From contig JAAYVF010000046.1 of NCBI GenBank assembly GCA_012517325.1, positions 1-64,000 of the forward strand: a DNA stretch of 64,000 bases, read 5' to 3'. Within the stretch, counting starts at the first letter, position 1. Every line of letters begins with the position of its first letter. The position numbers were made by a program, and so were the translations under genes. Of this stretch, positions 10,243 through 24,530 are shown one piece after another. This DNA is from Myxococcales bacterium. Its GTDB lineage: Bacteria; Lernaellota; Lernaellaia; Lernaellales; Lernaellaceae. The notes beneath the pieces are model-generated. The model searched no databases, was not told the DNA's origin, and worked only from the letters and a program-made list of their open reading frames with translations.

Positions 10243-11565
10243 TTACGAGGCCGCCCCGACAGTCCGCGCGATCCGCTCCTCGATCGTTTGCACCAGGTTT
10301 TTACCGGCGCCCGCTTCCACCAACTGACGCAGGCGCGACACGTCGGCGTCCAGATCCACCACTCCGAAATCGAGCGGCGGTTCGAGGCGACATTCCGCCG
10401 CGAGCGACTCATCGCCCAACCACCGTGCCGCCAGGCGGCAGGTCTTGAGCATGGCGCTCGCGGCGTTGCGCGCGACGTCCGACAGGGCCTGATTGGTGTC
10501 GAGAAAATCGAACGCCTTGCTGATGCCCGACTGCAGGCGGCCTTCGCGGACCGAGCCGCGCGACAGGTTCGCCAGCCGGTAGATTTCGTCGATCGCCCGG
10601 TCGATCTGCTCCATCAGCAACTGGGCCTGCGTGGCGTCCGGGCTGATGTACCGCGGCGCCGCGCGGCCTTCCGGATACAAAAAGATGCTGGCCGTGCCGA
10701 GGTGCGCGATATCGCCGTTCTCGGCGTATTCCTCCGCGCTGCCCTCCGCGACCAATTGCGAAAACGTCTGGCGGTAGAAAATTTCGGAAAGCAGGGAAGA
10801 CAGGTTTAGGATGTACGCTTGAATGGGTTCGAGATCCTGCCCCAGCCCCTCGCCGGTGAGCGGTTCGCCCGCATCGCGGAATTTCAGCGGCAGAATCGGC
10901 ACGAGGCCGGCCCGATTGGGCGTTTCGCCGCACGCCTGTCCCTTGCCGTCGAACAACAGGCAGGATGCCGGCGTCCAGAGGCGATACAGCACACCGCCAC
11001 GGTCGGCGATCTCTGCTCCCTCGAACCGGCGGCGGCTGACCCGTTCGCGCACCAGCGCCATGGTCAGATAGCCGTCGGCATCGGTTTCCCAGTCGCGCAA
11101 ATCGAGCGGATCGATGTAGTACAGGTACGGCCGCATTCCCATCGCCTGCCGCTCGGCCCAGTTGCGCGGCTCGTCATCGCCGGTGACCGCCGGTTCGTCC
11201 ACGCCGATCAGCACGAAACCGAGCGCGGCGCTGAGCGGCGTCATGGCGCGGAAGAAGTCGAGCAATCCCGTGCCGCGATGGTCGGCATCGGTCTGCAAAA
11301 ACTCGAGTCGGGCCGGCAGGCGCAGGGTCCAACGGGAGCGGAACAGATAATTGGCATAGGTATCGCAGATCGGCCGCAGATAATTGAGCAACGTGGCGCG
11401 CGCCAGGCGCCTGGTGAAATCGCGGTTGTTTTCCAGGCGGTGCGATTCCAGAGTCTGCCGCACGTAATCCTCGCCGCCGAAATACGCCGCCCGCCACCGC
11501 TGCCACCGCGCCGCCATGACCCGATAGGTCGGATGGACCGATTCGATCAGCTTTTGACCGGACAT
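10243..11565 (-). CDS. phage portal protein
   Basis: A 440-residue protein starting MSGQKLIESVHPTY, with GGAGG upstream. The N-terminal helical region (MAARWQRWRAAYFGG...NYLRPICDTYANYLF), the long central clip and wing region, and the C-terminal half with a DIAHLGTASIFLYPEG strand and long helices (MEQIDRAIDEIYRLANLSRGSVREGRLQSG) match SPP1-type or DUF4055-type portals. These form the dodecameric DNA gate of the capsid. Its place after the tape-measure and tail-terminator genes, not next to the terminase, is unusual. Confidence 0.8.
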   Translation of the reverse strand: MSGQKLIESVHPTYRVMAARWQRWRAAYFGGEDYVRQTLESHRLENNRDFTRRLARATLLNYLRPICDTYANYLFRSRWTLRLPARLEFLQTDADHRGTGLLDFFRAMTPLSAALGFVLIGVDEPAVTGDDEPRNWAERQAMGMRPYLYYIDPLDLRDWETDADGYLTMALVRERVSRRRFEGAEIADRGGVLYRLWTPASCLLFDGKGQACGETPNRAGLVPILPLKFRDAGEPLTGEGLGQDLEPIQAYILNLSSLLSEIFYRQTFSQLVAEGSAEEYAENGDIAHLGTASIFLYPEGRAAPRYISPDATQAQLLMEQIDRAIDEIYRLANLSRGSVREGRLQSGISKAFDFLDTNQALSDVARNAASAMLKTCRLAARWLGDESLAAECRLEPPLDFGVVDLDADVSRLRQLVEAGAGKNLVQTIEERIARTVGAAS

Positions 11566-12324: not shown

Positions 12325-13206
12325 TTAAAAAATCCGCCGATTGCGCGCTTCCTCGCGCCGCAGGATTTCGATCAGCGGCTCGGCGATGGATTCGGCCAGC
12401 GCTCGCGGGTTGCGTTCGGCCGCGCCTTCCACGTTGATTTGAATCTGGAAGGTGTTGCCCGGCGCCGGCAGTTCGCCCGTTCGATTCAGTTCGTAAAGCG
12501 ATGTCGCGCCCAGACGACGCACGACTTCCCGCCGCAGCACGAATTCACCGGTCTGCAAAATCGCCGGGATTTCGTCCGATTTCAGTTCCCCGGCATGATG
12601 GCGCTCCCCCGCGACCGTTCCGCCGCCGTGGAAAATGAACGGCATCCCCTTCAGCAGGCTGCCGGCGCCCGCTCCCGCCCCCGAGGTCATCGCCATGATC
12701 GCGGCGTTGATGCCCTGGATGATCAGCATCTGGGCGGTGACCGAAATGACCTGCTTCAAGACGTTCTTCCAGGCGCGCTCCCAGTCGTAGGTGCCGTCGA
12801 CCAACTGGCCGGCGATCCCGTCGCCGATCGTCGAAATGGCGCCGCCGACGCCGGCCTGGATGACGTTGCGCAGCGCCAGCCACTGGCCGGTCAACTGTTC
12901 GGTCAACTCGCTCGCCCGCCGATAGTTGCGTTCCACTTCCTGCCAGTCGGTGTCGCCGACCGGCATCACGCCGGACACCGCGCCGGGCCAATTGGGCGCT
13001 GTCGCCTGGGCTTGTCCGCCCGCCGGAGCGCTCCCGCCCGAACCCGCCGGAAACAGGCTTTTAACTTCCAGAACCTGGGCGCGAATCGTTCCCAATTCCA
13101 GGTTCCGCAGCCGTTCGCCCAGCACCTGCGCCGCGCGTTGGCCCCAGGCCTTCGGATCGGCGCTCGCATCGGCCGGGAACATCCCGGCCGGAGTCGCATC
13201 GTTCAT
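12325..13206 (-). CDS. short phage tape-measure protein
   Basis: A 293-residue protein. The C-terminal ~130 residues have the hallmark of lambda-type tape-measure proteins: FHGGGTVAGE, then DEIPAILQTGEFVLRREVVRRLGA-x-SLYELN. The middle is helical with small residues (QAGVGGAISTIGDGIAGQLVDGTYDWERAWKNVLKQVISV...) and may insert in membranes. Tape-measure length sets tail length; siphophage versions are mostly 600-2000 residues, while gene transfer agents use much shorter ones. A short tail is therefore predicted. The start overlaps the upstream stop as ATGA (13203-13206). Confidence 0.7.
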   Translation of the reverse strand: MNDATPAGMFPADASADPKAWGQRAAQVLGERLRNLELGTIRAQVLEVKSLFPAGSGGSAPAGGQAQATAPNWPGAVSGVMPVGDTDWQEVERNYRRASELTEQLTGQWLALRNVIQAGVGGAISTIGDGIAGQLVDGTYDWERAWKNVLKQVISVTAQMLIIQGINAAIMAMTSGAGAGAGSLLKGMPFIFHGGGTVAGERHHAGELKSDEIPAILQTGEFVLRREVVRRLGATSLYELNRTGELPAPGNTFQIQINVEGAAERNPRALAESIAEPLIEILRREEARNRRIF

Positions 13207-15101
13207 GCTCGGTTCTCCGCTCTGGCGCATTCGCCGTTCCACCGGTCACGTATCCGCTTGACCCAATCGCCGACGTTTCCCCGGCGGGTCGCTTGCCCCG
13301 GATGAGTCCGATACCACAACACAACCTCGCGCAGATTGCGCATCGTCGCGCCGGCTCGCCACAGGCGCAGCCAGAGGTCCAAATCCTCCGCGACCGGCAG
13401 GCTGGTATCGTAACCGCCGACCTCGCGCCATTTTTCTTTGCGAATCAAAACCGTCGGATGATTGAGGAACCAATTGCCGCGCCGCACCGTTTCGTCGTCG
13501 ATCACCGGCGGATGCGCCGTCGCATCGCCGAACGAACGCCCGTCCCAATGCACCAGTTGCCCGCCCAGCACATCCACTTCGGGATGGTCGGCGAGATACA
13601 CCCACTGCCGCTCCAAGCGGTCGGCCGTCATCACGTCGTCGCCGTCCATGCGGGCGATCCATGCCGCGCGTCCGATTTCGATGCCGGCGTTGAGCGCCGC
13701 CGAGATGCCACGCGGCATCGGAAAGCGAATCAACCGCGCACGGGGATCGCCGGCGATTTCCGCCAGCACGCTCAACGTGGCCTCGTTCCGACTGCCGTCG
13801 TCCACGAGAATCAGCTCCCAACGAACCATCGTCTGCCGGCGCACCGACTCCCACATCTGCCGCAGGTAGTCCGCCGGGGTATCGCGCACCGGGCAGACAA
13901 TGGAAATCCAAGGCGGCAAAGCGGCCGCGAACGCCGCGTGTTGCGCCTCGGCATGCCACGCGCCGTCATGCCGTCGCACCGCCATTTCCCGCGCCCGTCG
14001 CCCCCAAAACTCCCGTGCCGCCGCCGAATCCAACGAACGCAAGGCGTCGAGCAATTGCCAGTCGGTCCGCCCGAGAATCGCCGCGCCGTCGCTCGTGAAC
14101 GGGATCCCGCCGACCGCCCGCGCCACGACCGGCAAACCCGACGCCATGGCTTCCACCAGCGCGTAACTGCCCGTTTCCTCCTCACTGGGCACCAGAACGG
14201 CGTCCAATCGCCGATATTCGCCGGGCATGTCCGCCGGCGATACATCGCCTTGAAATTCGACGAACGGCAGCGACCCGATCTCCCGGCGCACCCTTTCAAC
14301 CCATGGGTTCCAGCGCCCCTTTCCGATAAACCGCAACCGCCAGGCGCCAGGCGCCCAACCTTTCAACGCCGTCAGAAAACCAAGCGGTAATTTTTCCATG
14401 CTGAGCCGGCCGATCACCCCGGCGACCAGCGGCGGCTCTTGCCGGACGACGCCCGGCCGGAACCGTTGCAGATCGACTCCAAGCGGCAGGATGCGTAGCG
14501 CCGGCCAGCTATCGTGGGTCGCCCGCGAAGGCGAATTGGCGAACACCGCCACCGGCTCGCCCCACGCCGGCCGCAGTGACCGCAAAACGTATTCGCCGTG
14601 GATCACCCAAAAAAGCACGCCGCTCACGGGAACGTACCGGCCGTACTCGAATTGCGGGCCGTGATGAACGACCACCTCCGGCGCCAATCGCCGCAGCAAA
14701 TCCGCCGCCTGGCCGGCCGAAGCATCCGCGAACACCTCTGCGCCGGGGAACGCAAACACGCGCTCGCCGCCCGGTGCGATCACCACCGTCCGCCAATGGT
14801 GGCCGCAATGCCCGCACCATTCGTGAATCATTCGTTGCGCCCCGCCGACCGACAGCGGCCAGGGCATGACATGAGCAAGCAGCGGCTTGATTTCGCGCAA
14901 TGCGTCCGTCACCGCCGTCAAAACAGGCGCCGGGGGAGCGGGAAGAATCCGATTTCTTCCCGCGGGCCGGAAAAGCCGGTTCGCGGCGTCGCGGCTTTCT
15001 TGCCAGCCTTTGCGTAACAGCGCCGGCCGCCGCTCGCGCCACCAGCCCGCCGGCACTTGCGTCCGGCGGCCGCGCGCGTTGACAACCCAAACCGTATCCA
15101 T
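13203..15101 (-). CDS. bifunctional GT4-GT2 glycosyltransferase inside the virion gene operon
   Basis: A 632-residue protein with three parts. Residues 1-35 (WVVNARGRRTQVPAGWW...LLRKGW) resemble short phage proteins of the form 'R-x-RG-x-x-VP...LL-x-KGW'. Residues ~70-390 form a GT4 (GT-B) enzyme with GVIGRLSMEKLP and an E-x7-E type motif (EEETGSYALVEAMASGLPVVA, near 305-325). Residues ~397-600 form a GT2 (GT-A) enzyme with SIVCPVRD, ELILVDDGS and the metal-binding ARMDGDD. It lies between major capsid and tape measure, so glycosylation of virion proteins is the likely role (inference). ATG with GGGGGAGG upstream. Confidence 0.85.
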   Translation of the reverse strand: MDTVWVVNARGRRTQVPAGWWRERRPALLRKGWQESRDAANRLFRPAGRNRILPAPPAPVLTAVTDALREIKPLLAHVMPWPLSVGGAQRMIHEWCGHCGHHWRTVVIAPGGERVFAFPGAEVFADASAGQAADLLRRLAPEVVVHHGPQFEYGRYVPVSGVLFWVIHGEYVLRSLRPAWGEPVAVFANSPSRATHDSWPALRILPLGVDLQRFRPGVVRQEPPLVAGVIGRLSMEKLPLGFLTALKGWAPGAWRLRFIGKGRWNPWVERVRREIGSLPFVEFQGDVSPADMPGEYRRLDAVLVPSEEETGSYALVEAMASGLPVVARAVGGIPFTSDGAAILGRTDWQLLDALRSLDSAAAREFWGRRAREMAVRRHDGAWHAEAQHAAFAAALPPWISIVCPVRDTPADYLRQMWESVRRQTMVRWELILVDDGSRNEATLSVLAEIAGDPRARLIRFPMPRGISAALNAGIEIGRAAWIARMDGDDVMTADRLERQWVYLADHPEVDVLGGQLVHWDGRSFGDATAHPPVIDDETVRRGNWFLNHPTVLIRKEKWREVGGYDTSLPVAEDLDLWLRLWRAGATMRNLREVVLWYRTHPGQATRRGNVGDWVKRIRDRWNGECARAENRA

Positions 15102-15166: not shown

Positions 15167-16021
15167 CTATTCGCTGATCGAAAATTCGACGGCGAAGGAC
15201 GGCCGTTGCGCGGCCACGCCGTACGCCATGTCCGCCGTGGCCAGCGTGCCGAGCTTGTCCTGCAAGTAGGCGAACTGGACGCGCGGCCCCAGGGCCACCG
15301 CGTAGGTGAACGCGTTTTTCTGGAAGTACAGGTTGTGGTACGTGGTCACGCCGCTGTCGACCGTGGCCGGCACGTTGGTCGTCACGAAGATCTTCGCCCC
15401 GAGCAGCATGTTGAGCTGGCCCGAAACGATGCCGTCGGCCATCGGGTTGTAATCACGGCTGATCACCGGATCCAACGCCAGCAGCCGTTCCAGGGTCGCC
15501 GGGTGAATCACGAAGAAGCGCTCTTCCTCCGGCGCGTCGGCCTCGTTGAGCTGCCGCAGCATCCGCAACAGGTCGGCTTTCAGGTCGTCGCCGGTGTGGC
15601 CGCCCGCCTGCACCGCCCCCTGGGCTTCGCTGTAAAGGGTCAGCAGATCGGCGTCGAATTTCTTGGCGATCGCCGCCGCGCCCTCGACGCGGATGAACTC
15701 GTCGATCAGGTTGTATTTGGTCACCGCGGCGGCCGCGTCCTCGACCAGAATCGAGGCTTCGACGTGTTGGTCGATTTCCAGCGACACCGCATCACCGGCC
15801 GGCTGCTGCAGCGTGACATTTTGTTTCGGCTGCTTGGGATTGGCCGCCATGGCGCCGAGGCGCGGGATCTTCAACCGGTCGCCGCCTTGCAACTGGGCGC
15901 TGCGATCGACGGTGAGATCCGCCATCACCAGCTTGCATTTCACCGCGTCCAGCAGCGTCGGCGACCACAACTCGGGAATGTACAGTTCCGCTTCCGCGAT
16001 CGTGAACGGTTCGTTTGCCAT
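15167..16021 (-). CDS. phage major capsid protein
   Basis: A 284-residue protein with the layout of HK97-fold coat proteins: N-arm (ELYIPELWSPTLLDAVKCKLV), E-loop region with GGDRLKIPRLG, spine helix (YNLIDEFIRVEGAAAIAKKFDADLLTLY), and P- and A-domain strands (FFVIHPATLERLLAL, NMLLGAKIFVTTNVP, NAFTYAVALGPRVQFAYLQDKLGT). No propeptide is obvious. It follows the scaffold gene by 3 bp and is preceded by AAGGAG. It should be the shell subunit and the most abundant virion protein. Confidence 0.8.
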   Translation of the reverse strand: MANEPFTIAEAELYIPELWSPTLLDAVKCKLVMADLTVDRSAQLQGGDRLKIPRLGAMAANPKQPKQNVTLQQPAGDAVSLEIDQHVEASILVEDAAAAVTKYNLIDEFIRVEGAAAIAKKFDADLLTLYSEAQGAVQAGGHTGDDLKADLLRMLRQLNEADAPEEERFFVIHPATLERLLALDPVISRDYNPMADGIVSGQLNMLLGAKIFVTTNVPATVDSGVTTYHNLYFQKNAFTYAVALGPRVQFAYLQDKLGTLATADMAYGVAAQRPSFAVEFSISE

Positions 16022-16024
16022 TCG

Positions 16025-16747
16025 TCATTGCTCCTTTTGTTTCGCCAGCGGCGAATTGCGTCCGGCGCCCAGGTGCTCGAGCAAAGCCTGATGGGCTTGC
16101 CGGGCAAAACCGGGATCGGCCATGCGCTCGGCCAGTTTTCCCTGCCGTTTGGCCAAGGCCACCTGGGCGTAACTGACCGGGGGATTCGCCGTCTGGTCGC
16201 CGGAGAGCGGCGAACCGCCGCTGCCCGTGCCGCCGCCGGCCGGCGCGGAAAGAATGTCCGGCCGTTCGGCCAGCAGCGCGGTCACCGCATCCGCCAGCGG
16301 TTGTCCGTCGAATTGAAAACTGATTTCGTCGTTCTCGCCGGCAACCGGCTGGGCGCGCGACAACAGGTAATCGACCAGCAGATCGCGCGCGCCGCGCACC
16401 ACGTTCGCCGCGTCCAATCGCTCGGCGATCTGCCGCGTGGCCAACGTTTTGGCGTACCGGTTTTTCCAGCTGCCGACGTCCGCCGCCAAGCGGGCGTTTT
16501 CCTGGCGCAGTCCGTCCAATTCGGACCGGTTCACATCGGCGGCCTGCTGCCGCTCCCGCGCCGCCGCCAGTTCCTGTTCGAGCGCCGTCATTCGCGATTC
16601 CGCCTCGCCGCGGGTCTTGCGGTCGCGCGCCAGGCGCCGAATGACGATGTTCTCGATCTGTTCCTGCAATTCCGGGTACTGTTCCAGCAGTTCCGGCAAT
16701 CGCACCGGCCCGGGGCCGTAGTCCACCGTTTTCGGGTCGTCACCCAT
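16025..16747 (-). CDS. phage scaffold protein
   Basis: A 240-residue protein, highly charged, with a long coiled coil (about residues 20-110: LEQYPELQEQIENIVIRRLA... and a Glu/Arg/Gln-rich heptad region). It ends in a Gly/Ser/Ala-rich linker and a short basic helical tail (QGKLAERMADPGFARQAHQALLEHL). This composition and a position directly upstream of the major capsid gene are typical of head scaffolds, which template shell assembly and are then removed. No head protease gene is visible nearby. GGAGG lies before the ATG. Confidence 0.75.
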   Translation of the reverse strand: MGDDPKTVDYGPGPVRLPELLEQYPELQEQIENIVIRRLARDRKTRGEAESRMTALEQELAAARERQQAADVNRSELDGLRQENARLAADVGSWKNRYAKTLATRQIAERLDAANVVRGARDLLVDYLLSRAQPVAGENDEISFQFDGQPLADAVTALLAERPDILSAPAGGGTGSGGSPLSGDQTANPPVSYAQVALAKRQGKLAERMADPGFARQAHQALLEHLGAGRNSPLAKQKEQ

Positions 16748-16808: not shown

Positions 16809-18035
16809 TCACCAAAACGCCGGCCGGTGCGCGGTCACGTGCAAGGCGTACCGCAGGGCGTCGCAGGTGTGATCGTTTTCCTTTAGCGGAGTTTCGCCGT
16901 CCGCGTCGGGATCCCACCGATAGTTGAGCAATTCCTCGATGACCGTCCGGCAGCGGCGATGGACGACCAGACCCGGCCGGCCGGCAATCGAGTGCAGCGC
17001 CTTGGCGACCGTTTGAATACCGCCCGCCAGATCGTTGTTCGCGGCCCGGGCCGGCAATCCCGCCTGGCGAAAATGGCGGATGTACGCCGGCGCCGAGGGG
17101 TCGCAGTAAAAAGTGCCCGCGCCTCGCCGCGCCGTCAGTTCCCGCGCCCACTTCGCCCAGCTCGTCTCGCCGGGCGACGCGATCAACACCTGCCGGGCGA
17201 CGACTTCCTCGACGACCATCCAACTTCCCAAGGCGTCGCGTTGCAGGCAGAGAATCGCGCCCGGATGGCGAAAACCCCAATCCACGCCGTAACGCGTCTC
17301 GACCGCCTCGTCCGGTTCCCGGTCCACGATGTGCAAGGCCGGATCAAATTCGCCGTAGATCTGGCCGACGAACGCGTCGAAGCTCGCCTCGTATTCGCGG
17401 CGGAAGTAAATCTCGGGCAGTTCCCGCGCCGCCTGCGCCACTTCCTGCGCCAAGCCGGGAATCAGCAGGTTGTCCAGCGTGCGCCAGGAATGAACGCTGA
17501 AATCCGGCTCGCCGGTCCAGGCTTTTTGCACGATGTAGCGATAAAACCAGTTGTGGCCGAGCGGCGTCGTCGAAAAGACGGCCCAGCCCCGACGGTCGAT
17601 CAGCCGGTGCCGCAAACCGCCCAGCCAAGCCTCTTCCTTGGCGCGCGCCGCCTCGTCGAGCCAAAGCCCGTCCAGGCCGGCCGCGACCAAAGCCTCGGGG
17701 CGCTCGGTGGTTTTGAATTCGATCAGGATATCGCCCTTGAGCCACAGTTCACGGTCGCCGGCGTGATACTCGCTGACCGGCGTTCCGCCCAGGCCGCCGA
17801 GCACGTCGAAAAGTTCATACGTCTGGACCTTGCCGATCGCATAGGTCGGCGCCGCGCACCAATAGTGCAATCGCCCGTTTTTCCGCAGGCGATCCAGATA
17901 TACCCGTTTGATGAATTCCCGCGCCGCCGCGTAGGTCTTGCCGCCGCGCACTCCGGCGGCCAGCGCCGCAAAACGCCGACTCTCGCGGTGAAAACGCAAT
18001 TGGTGCGGATGCGGTCGATATCCATCGAATAGCAT
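16809..18035 (-). CDS. terL: terminase large subunit
   Basis: A 408-residue packaging motor. The N-terminal ATPase has a Walker A-like GVRGGKT (residues 28-34) and Walker B LWLDEA (Asp126, Glu127), followed by a coupling motif (VFSTTPLGHNWFY). The C-terminal RNase H-like nuclease has YGVDWGF, FYCDPS and a final DHTCDALRYAL acidic site. The length is normal. The ATG at 18035 was chosen because Walker A then sits ~30 residues in; the longer frame runs back into the chaperone gene. No convincing small subunit was found. Confidence 0.9.
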   Translation of the reverse strand: MLFDGYRPHPHQLRFHRESRRFAALAAGVRGGKTYAAAREFIKRVYLDRLRKNGRLHYWCAAPTYAIGKVQTYELFDVLGGLGGTPVSEYHAGDRELWLKGDILIEFKTTERPEALVAAGLDGLWLDEAARAKEEAWLGGLRHRLIDRRGWAVFSTTPLGHNWFYRYIVQKAWTGEPDFSVHSWRTLDNLLIPGLAQEVAQAARELPEIYFRREYEASFDAFVGQIYGEFDPALHIVDREPDEAVETRYGVDWGFRHPGAILCLQRDALGSWMVVEEVVARQVLIASPGETSWAKWARELTARRGAGTFYCDPSAPAYIRHFRQAGLPARAANNDLAGGIQTVAKALHSIAGRPGLVVHRRCRTVIEELLNYRWDPDADGETPLKENDHTCDALRYALHVTAHRPAFW

Positions 18036-20520: not shown

Positions 20521-21132
20521 TTGAACGGAATCATGGAAAACATTTTATCGCGAATCACCGAATTAATTGATCGTTTCGCCAACGGTCACATTGCGCAATT
20601 CGCCCGGTTGACCGGACTGAAGGATGCGGCGATCCGCGCCTGGTTCAACCGGCGCGACGCCAATTTGACCGCCACCAGTATCTTACGGATTTGTCGCGCC
20701 ACCGGGGTCAGCGCCGATTGGCTTTTATTCGGCAAACCGCCTTCCGCCGATTCGCCAACCAAACCCGCCTTACGCCCCTGGCACGTCCCTTCGCGCAACG
20801 ACTCCGCCTCATCGAATCGGCAAACCGAAATACCGCGGCTTCTCCAATCGGCCGATTCCCACGGCTTCATCCTGACCGTTCCCGACGATTATCAGCGCAT
20901 GATGCCGTTCATTCAGCCCGGTTCTTTCCTGCTGGTCATTCCAGACTCGCCGTCTCAGGCCGGACAGGTCCTGTACGTGCAGAACCGCGACCAGACGCTG
21001 GTCGGCCGCTTTCAACCGCTGGCCGGCGGAAAACGCCTGCTATCCTTCGACAACCCGGAATACCCGCCGCAGCCGTTGGAAAGACGATGTCTGGTTCTCG
21101 GCATCGTCAAAGAAGTGAGTCGGCGTCTGTAA
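20521..21132 (+). CDS. phage CI/LexA-like repressor with degenerate S24 domain
   Basis: About 200 residues. The N-terminal ~65 residues form an HTH (FARLTGLKDAAIRAWFNRRDANLTATSILRICRATGVSADWLLFG) typical of phage repressors. The C-terminal half follows the S24/LexA fold (VPDDYQRMMPFIQPGSFLLVI...GQVLYVQN...TLVGRFQPL...NPEYPP). Where LexA has G-D-S-M-x-P the sequence reads Y-Q-R-M-M-P, so the catalytic Ser appears to be Arg (codon 20896-20898). The Lys expected near LVGRF is Gly (21004-21006). Self-cleavage is therefore unlikely. An ATG at 20533 (MENIL) is the better start than the TTG at 20521. Confidence 0.75.
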   Translation: MNGIMENILSRITELIDRFANGHIAQFARLTGLKDAAIRAWFNRRDANLTATSILRICRATGVSADWLLFGKPPSADSPTKPALRPWHVPSRNDSASSNRQTEIPRLLQSADSHGFILTVPDDYQRMMPFIQPGSFLLVIPDSPSQAGQVLYVQNRDQTLVGRFQPLAGGKRLLSFDNPEYPPQPLERRCLVLGIVKEVSRRL

Positions 21133-23381: not shown

Positions 23382-24530
23382 ATGCGGTTCGTGTCGGGAG
23401 CGGCGGATTGCGCCTTGATCATTCCGACCCGCGATCGGGCCCTGCGCCTGCTTGATACGCTATCGCGCATCGCCGCGACCGACGGACCCGCCGTCGAAAT
23501 CATCGTGATCGACAACGCCAGCGTCGACGGCACGCCCCAGCGGCTGGCCGCCGATTATCCTCAGGTCAAGGTGATCACCCAATCGAAAAACCACGGCACG
23601 GCCGGCCGCAACGACGGCGTCCGTCATGCCGAATCGCCCATTATCGTCCTGCTCGACGACGACAGCGGCCCGGCGCCCGGCACGCTGGAAAAACTGATCG
23701 CGGCCTTGCGCGACCCATCGCTCGGCATCGCCGCCTGCCCGGTCCGCCTGCCGAACGGCGTCTGGGAAGAAGGCGGCAGCCGGCACGTTCATATCGGTTG
23801 CGGGGCGGCCATGCGGCGCCGCATCTTTCTGGACCTGGGCGGGTATCCGAACGAATACGAAACCTACGTCGAGGAATACGATCTGGCCTATCGGGTGCTC
23901 GCCGCCGATCTGCGGGTGGAATACCTGGATGGCGCGGCCGTCTGGCATGAGCCCGCGGCGCGAGCCTCCTACGATTACATGGTCGAAAAGCTGACCGCCA
24001 ACAACGCCTATCTGGCGACCCGGTTCTATCCCTGGGACGAAGCGGTGTCGTTCATCGCCTGGACCGTATATCGCTACAGTGTTTTTGCCGCGAAGCGCGA
24101 GGCGCAGACCGGATTTCGGCGGGCCATGGAATCCTTGCCGGAAAAAATTCTGCGGGGACAAGCCCAGCCGCATCCTTTGCCGGAGCGGGCCTTGGATTTC
24201 ATCCTGCCGCACCGCGACACCGCGCGGGCTTTTTACGAATTGCATACCGCCGGTACGACGCAAATCGCCTTCCTGCGCGCCGGCAAGGAAATTCCCGGCT
24301 TGATTCGCGCCGCCCGCAATGCCGGATTGAAGGTCGAGGCGATCTACGAACCGGACGACGGTCTATTCGGAGGGGTCGACCAGCTTTTCAACGTACCGAT
24401 CCGGCCATTTTCAGAAGTCACCCCACAAATGAACGCGCGCCTGGTCATCGGCGGCACCAGCCCCGGATTTATTCGCAATACGCTCGAATTGGCCGCCAAA
24501 CACCGGCTTCCGGCCCCGGCTGTCCCCTAA
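23382..24530 (+). CDS. family 2 glycosyltransferase with extra C-terminal domain
   Basis: A 382-residue protein. Residues ~9-210 are a GT2 (GT-A) domain: ALIIPTRDRALRLLDTL, EIIVIDNASVDGT, the DDD metal site (VLLDDDSGP), GCGAAMRRRIFLDLGGYPNEYETYVEEYDLAYRV with its E-x-D base region, and a HEPAARASY end. The last ~110 residues (from about DTARAFYELHTAGTTQIAFLRAG) form a separate alpha/beta domain with a Rossmann-like look; its role is unknown. The sugar and acceptor cannot be told. A surface polysaccharide role is likely. Confidence 0.8.
   Translation: MRFVSGAADCALIIPTRDRALRLLDTLSRIAATDGPAVEIIVIDNASVDGTPQRLAADYPQVKVITQSKNHGTAGRNDGVRHAESPIIVLLDDDSGPAPGTLEKLIAALRDPSLGIAACPVRLPNGVWEEGGSRHVHIGCGAAMRRRIFLDLGGYPNEYETYVEEYDLAYRVLAADLRVEYLDGAAVWHEPAARASYDYMVEKLTANNAYLATRFYPWDEAVSFIAWTVYRYSVFAAKREAQTGFRRAMESLPEKILRGQAQPHPLPERALDFILPHRDTARAFYELHTAGTTQIAFLRAGKEIPGLIRAARNAGLKVEAIYEPDDGLFGGVDQLFNVPIRPFSEVTPQMNARLVIGGTSPGFIRNTLELAAKHRLPAPAVP

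Follow-up and report, generated by a model that had tools for sequence, protein, structure and literature searches.

Glycosylation of the capsid has been established for a few mycobacteriophages, and we know of no route by which the phage enzymes that carry it out find their virion substrate. The 64,000-nucleotide stretch of DNA analysed here (the window) offers a possible entry to this problem, as a prophage within it encodes a chain of two glycosyltransferases (GTs) preceded by a short segment that a preliminary description had read as a docking tag. What does this enzyme modify, and could its N-terminal segment bring it there?

A two-enzyme glycosyltransferase inside a virion operon

The open reading frame agrees to the nucleotide with the one proposed earlier; it opens with ATG, encodes 632 aa and lies on the minus strand, which had been left unstated. 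Its layout is as follows.

13203..15101, minus strand: whole gene, N-terminal capsid-adjacent-type module, GT4 and GT2 (632 aa)
14982..15101, minus strand: N-terminal module, residues 1-40 (predicted beta-hairpin and helix; likeness to post-capsid short proteins)
14892..14981, minus strand: Pro/Ala-rich linker, residues 41-70 (from sequence and alignment)
13932..14888, minus strand: GT4 enzyme (GT-B fold), residues 72-390 (E-x7-E at 309-317)
13227..13913, minus strand: GT2 enzyme (GT-A fold), residues 397-625 (DDGS 434, DGDD 486, EDLDLW 572)

Both halves of the GT4-GT2 pair that had been read from the sequence were recovered by Pfam. We assigned a domain to GT4 if PF13692 or PF00534 (Pfam GT1/GT4 clan) scored above its gathering threshold and E-x7-E was present; PF13692 matches residues 227-336 (E 9e-16; 58.8 bits against a cut-off of 27), with ETGSYALVE at 309. 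Assignment to GT2 required PF00535 above its gathering score, a DXD-type motif and a catalytic Asp, and PF00535 matches residues 400-518 (E 5e-24; 85.4 bits against a cut-off of 23.3), with DGDD at 486 and EDLDLW at 572. The catalytic motifs of both domains (E-x7-E, DDGS, DGDD, ED) are intact, and alignment shows that they are also kept in the relatives described below. A strong Shine-Dalgarno-like GGGGGAGG precedes the ATG, so the N-terminal segment, about 38 residues followed by the Pro/Ala-rich linker up to about residue 70, is very probably translated. No hydrophobic stretch of the membrane-anchor type was found in the 632-aa protein (Kyte-Doolittle 19-residue maximum 1.39).

Pfam and PHROG matches place the gene among virion genes, as had been proposed.

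10243..11565, minus strand: portal protein (phrog_145)
12325..13206, minus strand: short tape-measure-like protein, 293 aa (phrog_24, E 1e-12); its start overlaps the GT stop
15167..16021, minus strand: major capsid protein (phrog_267, E 1e-41; PF19821), directly upstream of the GT gene
16025..16747, minus strand: head scaffolding protein (Pfam/PHROG matches)
16809..18032, minus strand: terminase large subunit (Pfam/PHROG matches)
20521..21132, plus strand: S24/CI-type repressor bounding the prophage

Along the minus strand the order is terminase, scaffold, capsid, GT, tape-measure-like protein, tail terminator (a weak match), portal, a connector-like ORF (named from its position alone) and tail proteins. 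The GT gene is therefore situated inside a phage virion operon, the setting of the Che8/Corndog type, and its GC content (66%) is similar to that of the virion genes around it. The earlier placement between the capsid and tape-measure genes holds as regards the capsid gene upstream and the ATGA overlap with the gene downstream (13206-13203); the tape-measure label is weaker, the product having 293 aa and matching tape-measure profiles in their C-terminal part only.

The capsid gene as the constant neighbour

We searched for the portal gene in 7 genomes of the same bacterial class and 53 others; it occurs once in each of five of the seven and is absent from all 53. The element, which spans about 20 kb, encodes virion proteins, an endolysin and a repressor and is likewise present in one copy in these five, occupies positions 1-21132 of the window, and its counterpart in genome G001 lies at about 39300-59330 of contig C42 (L198, L020).

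The nearest relatives of the GT sit in related prophages of this class. In three of the five element-bearing genomes (G000, which is that of the window, G001 and G004), the GT gene or its start lies directly 3' of the capsid gene. The G001 gene encodes a GT4-GT2 protein, 40% identical, with the capsid gene upstream and the portal gene downstream. In G004, a GT that begins in a similar way stands behind the capsid gene before the contig ends, and another contig opens with the GT2 part of a GT relative followed by a connector-like gene; we infer that these two pieces are one gene. The gene upstream of the operon-borne GT is always the capsid gene, whereas the downstream gene differs in each of the three genomes (tape-measure-like in G000, portal in G001, connector-like in G004). 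Between G000 and G001, identity is 62% for portal and terminase, 29% for the capsid proteins and 40% for the GTs.

The other two genomes depart from this arrangement. In G002, the capsid gene has no GT next to it. In G005, a connector-like gene comes straight after the capsid gene, and the GT relative is found on a different contig in chromosomal surroundings (L021:8008-9957, outside the prophage and adjoining a HAD hydrolase gene). The element can thus do without the GT. If translated from an upstream GTG, the G005 relative might regain a segment similar to the N-terminal module. Such patchy presence, with no GT next to the capsid gene of G002 or G005, would suit a moron, carried as cargo or passenger without a part in the virion, or an enzyme that modifies phage DNA bases. 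We think this very improbable, given that the GT gene overlaps the next gene in G001 and G004 as it does through ATGA in G000, that three copies retain the N-terminal module and that none of the genes examined was recognised as coding for a base-modifying enzyme.

The worry that homologues might lie in host polysaccharide loci largely falls away, as the G001 relative and the G004 start adjoin capsid genes and the context is chromosomal only in G005. That chromosomal relative, together with a weak match of the GT2 half to GtrB-like O-antigen conversion PHROG families (E 5e-6), nevertheless speaks for the main rival explanation, in which the enzyme glycosylates lipopolysaccharide or another envelope glycan and serves lysogenic conversion or superinfection exclusion. 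O-antigen enzymes of the GtrB type have C-terminal membrane helices and a GtrA flippase as neighbour; the window protein has no membrane segments, no GtrA/GtrC-like neighbour was recognised, and the genes around it are virion genes. That its gene adjoins the capsid gene instead of lying at one end of the prophage, and that this linkage is conserved, also argue against modification of the host surface, which we consider unlikely.

Beyond this bacterial class, single-protein scans yielded no close viral-contig relatives of the GT or of the capsid protein, and inspection of 160 viral loci around homologous capsid genes revealed no relative of the window GT. The closest viral relative of the GT pair is a 1032-aa GT4-GT2 protein (L106:9992-13090) located behind tail-fibre genes, with an extra C-terminal part that reads like a third GT. 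GTs at the tail-fibre end of this viral contig, and the glycosylation of tail tube subunits that mycobacteriophages also display (PMC12619734), are what one would expect if a tail or baseplate protein were the acceptor and the N-terminal segment a stabilising extension without a docking role. This we judge rather improbable: across three prophages the GT keeps the capsid gene as its neighbour but no particular tail gene, and the relatives proposed for the N-terminal segment are themselves capsid-adjacent.

Likeness of the N-terminal segment to short post-capsid proteins

The N-terminal segment is not merely part of the GT4 fold, a doubt raised in the preliminary description. The homologous GT of L106 begins at the equivalent of residue ~70, which makes residues 1-70 extra to that fold, and the segment recurs in G001 and G004.

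Stand-alone counterparts were sought in viral loci whose capsid genes are related to that of the window. In 62 of 74 Dubu-type loci, the first gene past the homologous capsid gene encodes a short protein with the pattern V-x-G-P-N-G-x4-V-P-x4-A-x2-L-V; this pattern directly follows the capsid gene in 0 of 71 loci of the other type. These proteins, of the actinophage type (Streptomyces phage Dubu gp7 and its relatives, near DUF7302, phrog_3101 and phrog_748/2322/6587), share with the window segment the post-capsid position, the predicted hairpin-helix plan and a V-x-G-P-N-G...V-P pattern, but unlike the window protein they stand alone and have no enzyme domains.

Comparing the three GT segments with 24 stand-alone post-capsid proteins, hhalign gave a score of 16.1 over 36/38 columns, a score reached by none of 300 column shuffles, 300 background N-termini and eight operon controls. 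The corresponding E of 0.0018 is the figure for one comparison, with the 24 proteins picked by eye. HMMER returned E values of 6 and 18 for the segment against the stand-alone family in ~2,600 sequences, which are not significant, and hmmscan and hmmsearch behaved likewise. The pairwise sequence match of the segment to the Dubu-type short proteins was not significant either, and short-query tblastn with the segment and with Dubu gp7 gave nothing usable. PHROG families 3101 and 38361 were empty as entries to stand-alone relatives, and when GT N-termini from viral and bacterial loci were scanned with a regular expression, no second fused case emerged.

AlphaFold predicts a beta-hairpin and helix for the GT segment (E3-7, E13-17, H18-30; low confidence, pLDDT about 50-60 within the full protein) and a corresponding arrangement for a stand-alone protein (E2-5, E11-14, H16-23; pLDDT 84-90). 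The two models were built from independent alignments, and their topologies agree. The resemblance to short capsid-adjacent proteins noticed earlier holds in position and in the predicted hairpin-helix plan; in sequence it is modest, seen by hhalign and with no significant HMMER match. As the E value is that of a single comparison, the 24 proteins were chosen by eye and HMMER is silent, we regard the link between residues 1-38 and the stand-alone proteins as suggestive, not proven.

Some stand-alone proteins continue beyond this N-terminal part into C-terminal regions of varied kind, among them basic tails and an Lsr2 DNA-binding domain, which makes the segment look like a portable module. Proteins with this module and different C-terminal parts lie right behind capsid genes at L331:5840-6175 and in L343, L363 and L335; the short protein of L331 ends in an Lsr2 domain (E 8.5e-12). 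In the other group of related viral loci (L210-L289), the first ORF behind the capsid gene specifies a small zinc-ribbon-like protein with four cysteines in 26 of 71 cases.

Comparison with known glycosyltransferases

Chondroitin synthase (PDB 2z86/2z87), a two-domain GT polymerase, makes a polysaccharide and has two GT-A domains. The window protein resembles it in carrying two glycosyltransferases per chain, and its GT2 half matches residues 373-560 of the synthase chain (E 7e-9), but it combines a GT-B (GT4) with a GT-A (GT2) enzyme and is encoded in a virion operon.

Closer in setting are the mycobacteriophages. Glycosyltransferases are described as needed for capsid glycosylation in Che8 and Corndog (PMC12363180), and the capsid of Rita is reported to be glycosylated (PMC11256854). 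The Rita/Che8-type capsid protein is homologous to that of the window and belongs to the same capsid family. As here, the enzymes Che8 gp110, Corndog gp38 and Firecracker gp35-36 are phage-encoded; the Corndogvirus genes adjoin the capsid gene within the virion operon, as the window GT does, those of Firecracker lie between portal and capsid, and those of Rita, unlike the window GT, lie at the far end of the genome. The mycobacteriophage GTs are separate, smaller enzymes in which no GT4 half and no such N-terminal module were recognised. When the GT protein was searched by tblastn against 50,697 phage records, no mycobacteriophage was returned, so homology to the Che8, Rita and Corndog enzymes was not detected, and no Pfam GT occurs among 63 proteins neighbouring related capsid genes. 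These two results make the arrangement look like an independent recruitment.

A model for the two-enzyme glycosyltransferase

Taken together, the intact motifs, the constant capsid neighbour, the lack of a membrane stretch, the virion-like GC content, the likeness of the module and the mycobacteriophage precedents lead us to favour, with confidence only a little past the midpoint, a virion glycosyltransferase that most likely acts on the capsid, its N-terminal module helping it to dock. The protein would be a late, soluble, bifunctional enzyme of a tailed prophage, in which GT4 and GT2, as a tethered pair, probably add two successive sugars, of presumed order and nature, to a virion protein of the same operon. 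The major capsid protein is the likeliest substrate or docking partner. The N-terminal module most likely represents a recruited version of the short protein whose gene comes immediately after the capsid gene in other phages, and would bring the enzyme to the capsid protein or the procapsid.

Enzymes that glycosylate phage capsids are already known; the new part is the fused two-enzyme chain with a capsid-adjacent module. Its greatest value lies in connecting an enzyme, in a way that can be tested, with a portable module of the capsid-adjacent kind: if the connection is true, it would supply a docking mechanism open to direct test, a tag with which enzymes could be steered to phage shells, and a clue to what the short capsid-adjacent proteins, a common but unexplained family, do. 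A broader and, in our view, unlikely extension is that the small post-capsid module is a general capsid-binding adaptor that carries cargo (basic tails, Lsr2 or the two-enzyme GT) onto or into the head, in which case the GT would act while attached to the shell as it assembles, or would even end up packaged inside the head.

The element that carries the operon

No integrase or replication gene was found in the ~20-kb element, which is possibly a degenerate prophage or a gene-transfer-agent-like element. The gene-transfer-agent reading was set aside: the flanking genes differ and the capsid protein of G002 clusters with capsid proteins from a different host family, and a mobile prophage therefore fits better. 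Tail and portal genes have been strongly reshuffled between G000 and G001. Just outside the prophage, on the plus strand of the window at 23382-24530, lies an ORF that, judged by eye, resembles a GT2 glycosyltransferase.
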